Assembly (NCBI GenBank): GCA_009695285.1
Contig: SIBH01000007.1
Location: forward strand, 1-37,444
DNA length: 37,444 nt
Origin: Pedosphaera sp.
GTDB taxonomy: Bacteria; Verrucomicrobiota; Verrucomicrobiia; Limisphaerales; SIBH01
Direction of reading: 5' to 3'
The position numbers and the translations under genes are program-made. Positions 4,883 to 23,546 of the stretch are shown here, in pieces (position 1 is the first letter of the stretch; every line of letters begins with the position of its first letter). A model generated the notes under the pieces. That model ran no database searches, had not been told where the DNA came from, and saw only the letters and a list, made by a program, of their open reading frames with translations.

Positions 4883-5617
4883 ATGACTCGCATCATCATC
4901 ACCGGTTCCAAAGGCCGCATGGGCCAGACGCTGCTCGCCTGCGCCGCGCGCCTTCCCGATCTTCAAGTCACCGGCCAGGTCGATCAAGGCGACGATCTCG
5001 GGGCCATCATCGTCGGGTGCGACGCGGTGATTGATTTCAGCTTCCACAACGTCACGCCCGCCGTCGCCGCCTTGTGCGCGCAACACCGCAAGGCCCTCGT
5101 CATTGGCACCACCGGCCACTCGGCGGAGGAAAAATCGCAAATCGCAAATCGCAAATCGCAAATCCCGATGGTCTGGGCTTCGAACTATTCCACCGGCGTG
5201 AATACGCTCTTCTGGCTCACGCGCAAAGCGGCGGAAATTCTGGGGCCGGGCTTCGATCTGGAAGTCGTCGAGATGCACCATCGCCTCAAGAAAGACGCGC
5301 CGAGCGGCACCGCCACCACACTCCTCGAAATTCTTGCCGACGTCCGCCAGTTCCAGCTCGCCGACGCGCTGCGCCACGGACGCGAAGGCATCGTGGGCGA
5401 GCGCACCAGCGGCGAGATCGGCATCCACGCGATTCGCGGCGGCGATGTGGTCGGCGATCACACCATCATTTTCGCCGCCAACGGCGAGCGGGTGGAACTC
5501 ACCCACAAGGCCAGCAGCCGCGAGACCTTCGCCAACGGCGCGCTCCGCGCCGCGCAGTGGGTGGTGCAGCAGAAGCCGGGGATTTACGACATGCAGGATG
5601 TGCTCGGACTGAAATGA
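4883..5617 (+). CDS. dapB: 4-hydroxy-tetrahydrodipicolinate reductase
   Basis: DapB reduces hydroxy-tetrahydrodipicolinate with NAD(P)H, directly after DapA. The ORF track begins at 4808, but the ATG at 4883 is preferred because it puts the nucleotide-binding motif MTRIIITGSKGRMGQ at the N-terminus, gives 244 residues (normal size) and avoids overlap with the small upstream gene. Family landmarks are GTTGHSAEE, ASNYSTGVNTLF and the catalytic EMHHRLKKDAPSGTA segment, whose two histidines and lysine bind and protonate the substrate. An unusual point is that the helix after GTTGHS is encoded by a perfect heptamer tandem repeat (see the separate entry). The enzyme otherwise looks intact. Confidence 0.95.
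   Translation: MTRIIITGSKGRMGQTLLACAARLPDLQVTGQVDQGDDLGAIIVGCDAVIDFSFHNVTPAVAALCAQHRKALVIGTTGHSAEEKSQIANRKSQIPMVWASNYSTGVNTLFWLTRKAAEILGPGFDLEVVEMHHRLKKDAPSGTATTLLEILADVRQFQLADALRHGREGIVGERTSGEIGIHAIRGGDVVGDHTIIFAANGERVELTHKASSRETFANGALRAAQWVVQQKPGIYDMQDVLGLK
5132..5166. repeat. Heptamer tandem repeat AAATCGC inside dapB
   Basis: Four perfect copies of AAATCGC (5132-5159) are followed by a fifth with one mismatch (AAATCCC). Because seven is not a multiple of three, the units are read in successive frames as KSQIANRKSQIP; gain or loss of one copy would shift the dapB frame, whereas three copies would keep it. The repeat lies in the variable helix after the GTTGHS motif, a place that tolerates sequence change. 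Confidence 0.85.
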
Positions 5618-20134: not shown

Positions 20135-21313
20135 CTATTTGACCCGGTTGTCCGCCGGCCAGAGCATTTCCTCCCAGGGCAAATCGTCGAGGGGCCAGTT
20201 CGCGGCGAGGAGACGGAGGATGCGGCGGGGGCGAAATCCTTCGAGCAGGTTCTCGGGCTTGATGACGAACTGCAGGCCGCTGCTGCCGGGGGCCGCGGGA
20301 ACGCTCCGGATCTCCAGCACCTCGCAATACATCCGGTCATTGATCTGATCGTAGGCGCGCAGTGAATCTTCCGCCACGAGCGCGGCGACGCGGGACTTCA
20401 GTTTGAAATCGTTCGTCAGCGCGGCATTGAAACCGCCAAAGAGCGTGATGGTGAGGTGGCTTTTTTCGTTGTCCACGGTGTTGATCCAGCCGGCCAGCCC
20501 GTGGGTTTTCTGGTGGGCGCGATGCACTTCGGTCTGGCGCGCGGCGGCGAGTTGGCGGCTTTCGTCGTCGAGCCAGATGTCCGTGCAGTGGCCGGGGCCT
20601 TTGAGCGTGGCCACGGTGATGTTGACGAGCAGGGTCTGGCCGGCGGCGAGGTTGGTGAGCGCGCCGAAGCCGCGGCCCTGCCAGACGCGAGTGGCGGCGT
20701 TCACCTTGAAGACGGTGGGCTTCTCGTCGGCCTTGTGGTCGGCGAGCGAGAGGCCGGTGACGGTGATGTTGCCCTTGTTCAGGTCGATGGCATCCAGCCG
20801 CCACGCGCGCTGCTGGCGCTGGTGAAAACTGAAATCGTCCTCCAGCAGAAACCCCGAACTAAAACCGCCTTTGACCGGGCGGCCCTGCTTCGCGTCGAAG
20901 TAGAACTGCCCGTGCAGGTGCGTGCCGATGGGCAGGTCGCGCAATTCGGCGGGTGCGCCGTGGTAACGAAAGGTGCCGTAGGGCAGCATCGCGAAGAACA
21001 TCGCGCGGTCGTAGTCGTCGGTGCGCTGGTCGTTCCGGCGGTCGGGGCGGAGCTGGCCGGTGCGGTTGACGTGATCCATCTGGATCAGCTCGCCGGCGAT
21101 GTAATGCGCGGAGCCTTCCGGTGGAAATTGACCAGGTTGGATCTGGTAGGTCGTGGGTTTCTTGTCACCGTCGGCGGCAGTTGCGAATGACGAAACCAGA
21201 ATGACGAATGACGAAACGGCGGCGGCGAGCGCCAATGACAAATGGCGAGGGGCGAGTGCCGAAAAGGACCGTCGGTCGATGTTTCGCTCAGTGATGCAGT
21301 CGTGGTTCGTCAT
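20135..21313 (-). CDS. Exported protein of unknown function (392 residues)
   Basis: No named domain is recognised. The N-terminus has a signal-like hydrophobic core (LSLALAAAVSSFVILVSSFATAADG), and the mature part is rich in short beta-strand patterns, with TRVWQGRGF and LQFVIKPENLLEGFRPRRI blocks. The segment AMFFAMLPYGTFRYHGAPAE and PIGTHLHGQFYFD suggest a conserved family in this bacterial group. Three cysteines occur in the predicted mature part. The ATG at 21313 and part of the signal peptide are encoded by copies of the heptamer TGACGAA. It sits six bases upstream of the cytochrome c/WD40 gene and follows two other exported genes on the same strand, so it is likely a periplasmic or surface partner of that protein. 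Confidence 0.8.
   Translation of the reverse strand: MTNHDCITERNIDRRSFSALAPRHLSLALAAAVSSFVILVSSFATAADGDKKPTTYQIQPGQFPPEGSAHYIAGELIQMDHVNRTGQLRPDRRNDQRTDDYDRAMFFAMLPYGTFRYHGAPAELRDLPIGTHLHGQFYFDAKQGRPVKGGFSSGFLLEDDFSFHQRQQRAWRLDAIDLNKGNITVTGLSLADHKADEKPTVFKVNAATRVWQGRGFGALTNLAAGQTLLVNITVATLKGPGHCTDIWLDDESRQLAAARQTEVHRAHQKTHGLAGWINTVDNEKSHLTITLFGGFNAALTNDFKLKSRVAALVAEDSLRAYDQINDRMYCEVLEIRSVPAAPGSSGLQFVIKPENLLEGFRPRRILRLLAANWPLDDLPWEEMLWPADNRVK
21188..21215. repeat. Heptamer repeat TGACGAA encoding part of a signal peptide
   Basis: TGACGAA occurs at 21188-21194, 21202-21208 and 21209-21215, and on the minus strand these bases encode about residues 33-42 (SSFVILVSS) of the exported protein. The hydrophobic core therefore arises from a microsatellite, read in different frames by successive units. 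Confidence 0.75.
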
Positions 21314-21324
21314 TCGTCATTTCG
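21267..21324. repeat. Dispersed repeat unit, copy 1 (58 bp), with TGACGAA heptamers
   Basis: This block overlaps the start of the 392-residue gene. On the minus strand it reads ATGACGAATGACGAACC, then TGCATCACTGA, then CATCGACC. It is similar to copy 2 at 22085-22147. Two tandem TGACGAA units (21306-21319) create overlapping ATG codons seven bases apart, one of which (21313) is the chosen start. Confidence 0.65.
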
Positions 21325-21345
21325 CATAATTCCTGAAACGCCGTG

Positions 21346-22020
21346 TCATTTTGCGGACGGGTGCGCTCGTTGCAATTTCTCGGGCAGTTCCTTCAGCGGG
21401 GTGACTTCGGTTACGTCATCGTAATACCACGCCTTGCCGGTGGTCTTCTTGTATCCGACCACGCTGGTCGGATACTTCGTGCCGGCCGGCAAGTTGGTCC
21501 AACCCGAGAACCGATGGATGTCGCTGCGCCAATCGATGCGGGCGAGCAGGTCGTTGGTCCGGCTGAAGTAGAGTTCCATTGCCGGTTTCACGCTGCCGCT
21601 GATGCGCAGACCCCAGAGTTCCATGTCGCCATCCTTCAAGTCCTGGACGACTTCAATCGTCGAGACCGAGTCGGTGAGCGCGCCGAGTGTCCAAGCCCAG
21701 ACCAGGAACCTCGCGGGTTCATCCTCGCGTTCCGAGAACCCGCCGGGTGCCTTGAGCCACCAGTGACGCGGCGCGTCCATGACGCTTTCGCGTTTCGCGC
21801 CGAAGCCGGGGTCCTTCTCGCCCAACCGCACATGATCCTTGAAGGTGAAGTAGGCCAATAGATTGGTTCTGCCGCCAGCAGCCTGAATCGCCTTTTGCAT
21901 CAGAGGCCGCGCCGCAGGCGAAACAGTTCCGATATCTCCACGTTGGTGCGGTCCATCGGCGCAGGGCGCGGCCAGCGGAAGCAGCAAGCCAGCGTGCAGG
22001 GCAAGGAGCAGTGGTTTCAT
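21346..22020 (-). CDS. Exported protein of unknown function (224 residues)
   Basis: A clean signal peptide (MKPLLLALHAGLLLPLAAPCADG) opens a 224-residue protein. The mature part has alternating strands and a pattern (ELYFSRTNDLLARIDW and TSVVGYKKTTGKAWYYDDV) that loosely recalls outer-membrane lipoprotein-sorting/LolA-like beta-sheet proteins, but I cannot assign it to that family with confidence. The cysteine near the end of the signal peptide (APCAD) might be a lipobox variant, but LAAPC is a poor fit. It lies between the DUF1552 gene and another exported unknown on the same strand and is probably part of the same operon. Confidence 0.78.
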   Translation of the reverse strand: MKPLLLALHAGLLLPLAAPCADGPHQRGDIGTVSPAARPLMQKAIQAAGGRTNLLAYFTFKDHVRLGEKDPGFGAKRESVMDAPRHWWLKAPGGFSEREDEPARFLVWAWTLGALTDSVSTIEVVQDLKDGDMELWGLRISGSVKPAMELYFSRTNDLLARIDWRSDIHRFSGWTNLPAGTKYPTSVVGYKKTTGKAWYYDDVTEVTPLKELPEKLQRAHPSAK

Positions 22021-22084
22021 TGAATTTTGAGGACGGGTTTGCGCTTTCGCGAGTGGGAAGGGAGTGGCTGCCTATGCCAAAAAC

Positions 22085-22147
22085 GACCCGGGGTCGATGG
22101 TTCATTCAGTGATGCAAAGTGATTCGTCATTCTGGCTTCGTCATTTC
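22085..22147. repeat. Dispersed repeat unit, copy 2 (63 bp)
   Basis: This second copy of the repeat at 21267-21324 overlaps the DUF1552 stop codon. Shared blocks include GTCGATG, TCAGTGATGCA and TTCGTCATT, with small differences between the copies. Both copies lie directly after one gene and upstream of the next on the same strand, about 820 bases apart. Confidence 0.6.
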
Positions 22148-23546
22148 AAACGATTTCCGAAACCGGTCCGAGGCTGTCCACGAACTTCTCCGACTTCACA
22201 TCCATCTTCTGCAGCATGGTAAGGAGCAGATTACTGACGCGGGCCTTGTCGTCCGCCGGCTTGCCGCAGACGCCGTAGTGCGCCCCGGCGTTGGCGAGAT
22301 CGTAGGATTTGATTTTCGGAAGGTTGTAATCGAGGTGCTGGCCGTGCTGAAAACCAAGGGCGCGGCCGCCGGCCAGAATCGTGGGCAGGTTGGCGTTGCC
22401 GTGGCTGTGGCCGTAGCTCATGCCGCTGCCGAACAGAACCATCGTGCGGTCAAGCAGCGACTCGTCGCCATCGCGCACCGCCGTGAGCTGGTCCAGGAAA
22501 TAGGAGAACTGCTCGGTGATGAACGCATCGCTCTTGCTCAGGCGGGCCATGATTTCCGGATCGCCATTGTGATGGGACAGCTCGTGCCGTGTCTGGGTGA
22601 TGCCGATTTCGGGAATCGCCAGCCCGTTGCCCTCCGTGCCGCTCATGTAGGTGATGACGCGCGTCATGTCCGTGCGCAACGCGAGCACGATGAGATCATA
22701 CATCGTGCGGTAATACTCGCCAGCCTGCGACTTGGAGACATCGCGCTGGAAGTGGCCGGTGACGGCTGGATCGAGCTTGGGCTTGGGCACGTTGAGCCAG
22801 GCATCCAGCCGCTCGGTGCGCACCTCGACTTCGCGGACGGCGGTCAGATATTCGTCGAGCTTGGTGCGGTCCTCGCCGCCAAGCGTGCGGCGGAGCGAGC
22901 GGGCGTCGTCCAGCACGGCGTCGAGCACGCCGTGCCGGCGGTTGAGACGGCGGCGGCGCACCTCGACACCGCCCGACTCCTCGCCAAAGAGGCGGTTGAA
23001 GACGTTGCGTGGATTGTCCTCGGCGGGCAGCGGCACCCCGTCGCGCGACCACGAGAGGGTATTGATGACATTGCCCGGTGCGCCGGTCCCGCTGGCGAGT
23101 GAAAGTTCGAGCGACGAAAACCGCGTGTGAATCGACGTCGCCTCGGCCATGAGTTGGTCGCAGGAAACGCTGTTGCGATACGCGCCACCCTCCTGGCTAA
23201 GCTTCGCGCCGGTGAGCCACAGATCGGCGCAGACGTGGGCCGTGCCGAGGCCGCCAGGATGATGCAGGCCGCTGATGGGGGTGAGATTCGCGCGATGCTT
23301 TTCGAGCGAGCGCATCGGCGCGCTGAACTCGTAGTCGCGCCCGGCCTTGGTGATCTGCCAGGTGAGCACATTCACACCGTTGGGAATGTAAACGAAGACG
23401 GAGCGCCGCGGTTTGGCGGCGGTCCCGGCGGCGAGAGCACGCAGCGGATTCATGCAGTCCAGCAGCGGCAGGGCGACGGTCGCGCCGAGGCCGCGCAGGA
23501 AGTGGCGGCGGTTAAGGAGCCAGCGCTGGGAGAGGATGTTGCTCAT
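22146..23546 (-). CDS. DUF1552 family exported protein (Tat-type signal)
   Basis: The protein begins with a twin-arginine-like leader ([29 protein letters not shown]), and the body carries DUF1552 landmarks: [48 protein letters not shown] and the final [12 protein letters not shown]-type ending. The 466-residue length is normal. DUF1552 genes are found next to DUF1592/DUF1588/DUF1585 cytochrome c genes in PVC and myxobacterial genomes; here its start is 15 bases after the stop of such a gene. DUF1552 is related to DUF1501, so this pair parallels the DUF1549-DUF1501 pair on the other strand. It is likely periplasmic with unknown activity. Confidence 0.92.

Follow-up and report, generated by a model that had tools for sequence, protein, structure and literature searches.

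A dispersed palindromic heptamer repeat as the probable source of a start region and signal peptide in Verrucomicrobia

The 5' end of a gene for a predicted exported protein of 392 amino acids in Pedosphaera sp. is best read as a captured copy of a palindromic element that is dispersed through the bacterial order. The repeat would have been exapted as start region and signal peptide, and possibly also as a hairpin that occludes the start codon, and we put the probability of the whole explanation at roughly 0.65. The left arm of the element would give the start codon (ATG ACG AAC, read MTN), the interior would give the n-region, and the right arm would give the hydrophobic h-region. The reading draws on direct observation of the inverted arms, of dispersed copies and their intergenic placement, of conservation in orthologues, and of recurrence in unrelated exported genes. 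Features of the locus are listed in Table 1 by their position in the window, the whole stretch of 37,444 nucleotides that was analyzed, together with unrelated genes in which an arm is read in frame. The focal genome is called G000, and its relatives carry other G numbers.

Table 1. Features of the focal locus, and unrelated genes of the order in which an arm of the element is fused in frame.
Feature	Position in window, or genome	Strand	Sequence or translation	Basis or remark
392-aa predicted exported protein gene, family unassigned	20135..21313	-	begins MTNHDCITERNIDRRSFSALAPRHLSLALAAAVSSFVILVSSFATAADGDKK...	ORF calls
Left arm (gene sense), contains start codon ATG at 21313	21306..21322	-	AAATGACGAATGACGAA	unit matches, 16-bp inverted match
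Element interior, codes n-region of signal peptide	21216..21305	-		translation
Right arm (gene sense), codes hydrophobic core	21188..21215	-	TTCGTCATTCGTCATTCTGGTTTCGTCA; SSFVILVSS	unit matches, translation
Predicted signal peptide, residues 1-46	21176..21313	-	AXA-type cleavage ATA/AD (between second A of ATA and AD)	manual prediction, translation, hydrophobicity
Predicted mRNA hairpin, start region paired with signal core	21175..21335	-		RNA fold
Second copy of the element's 5' part (R1), right behind DUF1552 stop codon	22075..22145	-	left arm TGACGAA-GCCAGAA-TGACGAA	
224-aa gene between DUF1552 gene and 392-aa gene, R1 and R2 on its flanks	21346..22020	-		
DUF1552 (HXXSHH) gene	22146..23546	-		Pfam PF07586, E 3e-93
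NodT-family outer-membrane lipoprotein	G107		...RISSFVILFLLNGC-AIGPNYKRP	TIGR01845, E 2e-110
GH127 enzyme	G091		FFRFVIRHSSFVIFLFTLMANA	arm is predicted hydrophobic core
Sulfatase	G016		RHSSFVIFLLAFLLSFAANA	arm is predicted hydrophobic core
PSCyt1/PSCyt2 cytochrome	G002		MKARAILVSSFVIGHSSFGAADG	arm is predicted hydrophobic core
Exported protein, family unassigned, MTN start too	G140		MTNHPNPKES...WLSSFVILSVLPAAAQ	arm is predicted hydrophobic core
Amidohydrolase-like protein	G016		...SSFVILLASSAFA	arm is predicted hydrophobic core

The repeat unit is the heptamer TGACGAA. The window holds 16 matches to it where 6.2 +/- 2.6 are expected, and none of 100 shuffles reached as many. Five units lie within 132 bp at the focal locus, three on the plus strand (21188, 21202, and 21209) and two on the minus strand (21306 and 21313), and this clustering is not due to chance. 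The original prediction correctly placed two units at the ATG at 21313, such that ATGs at 21313 and 21320 stand seven bases apart in different frames. It also placed the same unit again inside the signal peptide, and while units are indeed present there, they lie on the opposite strand, and the two clusters form inverted arms about 90 bp apart. The start arm matches the core arm exactly over 16 bp in inverted orientation, and none of 1000 dinucleotide shuffles gave a match as good. We conclude that the units form one palindrome and not a single tandem array, with the start region as one mirrored arm and the signal core as the other.

Read in the sense of the gene, the 5' end is GCGAAATGACGAATGACGAACCACGAC...CCGTTTCGTCATTCGTCATTCTGGTTTCGTCATTCGCAACTGCC. 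Translation of positions 21185 to 21214 gives SSFVILVSSF, in agreement with the earlier statement that the units inside the signal peptide encode SSFVILVSS. The right arm overlaps AAAVSSFVILV, the most hydrophobic 11-residue window on the Kyte-Doolittle scale. The N terminus, examined by eye and with the Kyte-Doolittle window, shows putative Sec features, namely, a basic n-region, an h-region, and an AXA motif, and the signal peptide was predicted manually. The protein had no match in Pfam, NCBIfam, or PDB. It probably starts at 21313 and is probably exported.

R1 resembles the 5' part of the focal element with 80% identity over 59 bp (BLAST) and has a 27-bp inverted match to it at 93%. We note that copies of the junction sequence (R1 and R2) flank the 224-aa gene on either side, the gene and R1 together occupying window positions 21346 to 22145, and that this gene is absent from the junction in the orthologous loci read. 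An orthologue of the 224-aa gene in G284 (78%) lies on a different contig, and the homology ends at the stop of the open reading frame. The exact double unit occurs only four times in the 2.15-Mb draft of the focal genome, and two of the occurrences are at the focal locus.

Across the order, 30 of 97 genomes carry the double unit TGACGAATGACGAA; G016 has 102 copies and G084 the maximum of 128, and a reversed-pattern control was near zero. Most copies inspected consist of (TGACGAA)n, an interior of about 30 to 150 bp, and (TTCGTCA)n, in which the arrays have two to four or more units. The interiors, compared by eye, vary between copies within one genome, an observation that speaks against a consensus conserved over the full length of the element. 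Context was quantified in 347 kb of one relative, G016, with coding sequence called by a simple home-made gene finder. There, 13 of 14 tandem arms were intergenic, where coding sequence made up 89% of the DNA, and 12 of the 14 had an inward-facing partner within 200 bp while none had an outward-facing one. All 13 intergenic arms sat between co-directional genes, a weak point in that 119 of 165 gapped gene pairs in the background are co-directional too. The element has the attributes of MITEs or palindromic elements fused to open reading frames, namely, inverted arms, dispersal, a mostly intergenic location, and short length. The repeat sequence was not found in the literature searched, where further searches yielded only general papers on repeats, and Rfam covariance models gave no match at an E value of 1 for window positions 20900 to 22300. 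We note that in the focal genome a heptamer pair (L177, contig C49, 1609-1625) supplies the codon that ends one gene (AAA TGA) and also the start of the gene behind it (ATGACGAACCA), again as MTN. We also note that in G284 a second element copy (L179, contig C89, 2777-2790) immediately precedes the DUF1552 gene in the same operon, again as the ATTCTGGTTTCGTCATT variant.

How such an element might become a signal peptide can be outlined. The element usually fills the gap between two co-directional genes, and the reading frame of an exported downstream gene could therefore be extended back into the element, so that an arm would become the signal peptide. The right arm could form the h-region because (TTCGTCA)n is free of stop codons in every frame and reads ...SSFVIRH... 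in rotation. In-frame fusion of an arm to an open reading frame was found in the focal gene and in at least six unrelated genes (Table 1); their signal cores are predicted, and export of the products is implied by protein family or cleavage motif. In a relative of the NodT-family protein, 59% identical and encoded in the same family of genomes, the signal is an ordinary one that lacks the arm. Copies of the element are not fused as a rule, as in many others the gene start lies downstream of the arm, for example, in genes for MutL, TsaD, an ABC ATPase, and an aminotransferase (the first three names were assigned by reading the sequence). Moreover, most fusion cases were found with patterns that favor hydrophobic codons behind the arm, and thus they indicate recurrence and not rate. 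We note that the NodT orthologue of G106 (L296) has a 5' end in which the signal peptide seemingly derives from another inverted repeat, CCAAGCTCCAAGCTCC ... GCTTGGCGCTTGGAGC, translated as LGLGAWSFSGGWSLVLGA, hinting that other repeat families do likewise.

Orthologues of the 392-aa protein occur in the order with 60 to 79% identity, and the relatives with orthologous contigs are mostly Pedosphaera-type Verrucomicrobia. The gene lies directly behind the DUF1552 gene in G284, G273, G092, G018, G056, and G015. The closest orthologue, that of G284 (79% amino acid identity), starts MTNEERTSERS, has the core LSSFVILLSSL, and shares the DNA plan and length of the focal gene. The orthologues of G092 and G273 start MTNHPSSIRR and MTNRPSSIRR, respectively; in each, the start holds a single exact TGACGAA and the core has diverged. 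A hydrophobic core is found at the corresponding place in the orthologues, and the start arm always ends in a TGACGAA unit, which in four genes (G000, G092, G273, and G284) contains the ATG. The arrangement at the junction of the DUF1552 and 392-aa genes is thus old. Retention of the MTN start and of a similar core in diverged orthologues also weakens the idea that an element was recently inserted into an unrelated signal peptide. Two histories would account for the pattern: capture of the element ahead of the split of these lineages, with erosion in some of them, or a core that was partly heptamer-like to begin with.

The palindrome might instead be conserved as an intercistronic RNA hairpin that sequesters the start codon and couples translation to the upstream gene, or that serves as an mRNA processing site, with coding of the signal core as a side effect. 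The predicted fold pairs AAAUGACGAAUGACGAA with UUCGUCAUUCGUCAUU (minimum free energy, -51.5 kcal/mol; z, -2.2; equaled by 5 of 200 shuffles), and the predicted pairing probability of the focal start codon is 1.0. In four orthologues the start codon is paired with the core, in predicted helices of 15 bp (G000), 20 bp (G284), 17 bp (G092), and 15 bp (G273), against a background median of 5 bp in 241 genes. Moreover, both arms have changed at position -3, where the pair is C-G, A-U, A-U, and G-C in the same order of genomes, and most elements lie 2 to 50 bp away from the stop and start codons of genes that run in the same direction. The pairing, however, is seen in four related sequences only, 5% of the 241 background genes reach a start-codon helix of 15 bp, and the hairpin is missing in G056, G015, and several other fused genes. 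We regard a hairpin as possible, if somewhat unlikely, as the explanation of the locus. It is compatible with capture of the element, and both could be true together. Because the upstream stop codon adjoins the helix, translational coupling is suggested, and the pairing of start codon and core may restrict translation to ribosomes that come from the upstream gene. A bolder form of capture would make the element a portable module of start and signal peptide, with an ATG in the left arm, a core readable in all three frames, and arms that pair such that translation occurs only when coupled to the preceding gene. Independent and recurrent captures of such a module would then supply new exported proteins, but we hold this extension to be doubtful.

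Alternatively, the core may be an ancestral hydrophobic sequence that resembles the heptamer by coincidence or local drift, with no element captured. G018 retains GTCATTCTGGTTTCGTC and CVILVSSF, and G092 has FVVLILS, both without perfect heptamers, and thus the core could be ancestral and its likeness to the repeat partly convergent. The start region, however, recurs in inverted form as the core, with a significant match in G000, G284, and G092 (p 0.006); in G273 (p 0.115) and G018 (p 0.06) the match is weak, and G056 and G015 have none. Moreover, the layout of array, interior, and inverted array equals that of the dispersed elements, and the same fusion recurs in unrelated exported genes. An ancestral core without capture seems unlikely to us. 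The original prediction that the export signal derives from repeat sequence is upheld insofar as start codon and core are repeat-derived or repeat-like and the same arm serves other exported genes, but part of the likeness may be convergent.

Translation might also begin beyond the left arm, at an in-frame TTG for instance, in which case the start arm would be leader DNA only. Two in-frame TTG codons precede the focal core (APRH-TTG-S-TTG-ALA), and G284 has an in-frame ATG right before its core (MVALSSFVILL). MTN, however, stands at the corresponding place in G000, G284, G273, and G092, and in G092 and G273 it yields an ordinary short signal peptide with a basic n-region (MTNHPSSIRRLAI...). 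We find a downstream start quite improbable. The upstream ATG at 21320 yields MTNDEPRLHH and then a stop, a dead end of ten codons.

Finally, a phase-variable simple sequence repeat in which unit number switches export on and off is very improbable, and we rejected it on frame logic and on the core length of the orthologue. The start arm does differ by one 7-bp unit between R1 and R2 and also among orthologues, with two heptamer-like units in G000, three in R1, G092, and G273, and four in G284, counted by eye, but the four genes all start MTN. The 3'-most ATG of (ATGACGA)n holds its frame whatever the value of n, and a change in copy number would add or remove only out-of-frame decoy ATGs instead of selecting the start frame as had been proposed. 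Copy changes were also expected to alter the hydrophobic core, but the core has two truly tandem units only, a change of one unit (7 bp) would frameshift the whole protein, and the core of G284 is equal in length.

The element that we take to have been captured resembles several known repeats. The YPAL/RU-2 element of Yersinia, a small dispersed palindrome of 168 bp, likewise makes up part of the signal peptide in YPO1552, a protein predicted to be exported (PMC2229807). YPAL/RU-2 does so at one Yersinia locus, whereas the element here has heptamer-array arms and a variable interior and is found in several unrelated exported genes across the order. Rickettsia palindromic elements, of about 100 to 150 bp, also occur both between genes and in frame within open reading frames (PMC2229807, PMC10969869). 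They lie inside conserved proteins and encode a conserved peptide, whereas the fusions described here are N-terminal, in predicted exported proteins, and the interior appears not to be conserved. GTAG- and CGTC-tagged REPs are also short, palindromic, and intergenic and often form inverted pairs, and the verrucomicrobium O. terrae carries GTAG REPs in abundance (PMC3733652). A REP, however, is a 20- to 40-bp stem-loop with a tetranucleotide tag, whereas the element has heptamer-array arms with CGTC inside each unit and no unpaired tag. None of 20 Y1_Tnp loci in five genomes was flanked by the element, and one (L238) had a copy about 0.9 kb away. Membership among REPs or REPINs with a RAYT was rejected, as the element is not a tag-bearing palindrome of 20 to 40 bp and flanks no RAYT-type gene in the five genomes. 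In Beggiatoaceae, tandem TAACTGA heptamers also lie between genes close to start codons, and a posttranscriptional role has been suggested (PMC4679880). Those are direct repeats (169 sets, one indirect), whereas the arms here come in inverted pairs.

That palindromic elements can be fused in frame into open reading frames is already known. What appears to be new is an element of inverted heptamer arrays that is used repeatedly as a signal peptide core within one order. Little is known about how new signal peptides originate. In the present case, an intergenic repeat that is dispersed, that lacks stop codons in all three frames of one strand, and that encodes a hydrophobic stretch at each turn may have come to serve several unrelated genes as their export signal. 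Were this confirmed, the element would offer a repeated natural experiment on the birth of signal peptides from noncoding DNA, with orthologues in different states. Annotators of Verrucomicrobia may encounter SSFVIRH-like N termini as translated repeats, some of which would be real signal peptides and others wrongly extended starts.

Further heptamer arrays were also seen. Long pure TGACGAA arrays occur in G018, one of about 17 units at the end of a contig and one of 9 units (L055, contig C179, 45580-45700; L186, contig C365), and the window itself holds another perfect tandem heptamer, AAATCGC repeated 4.7 times, at positions 5132 to 5164.
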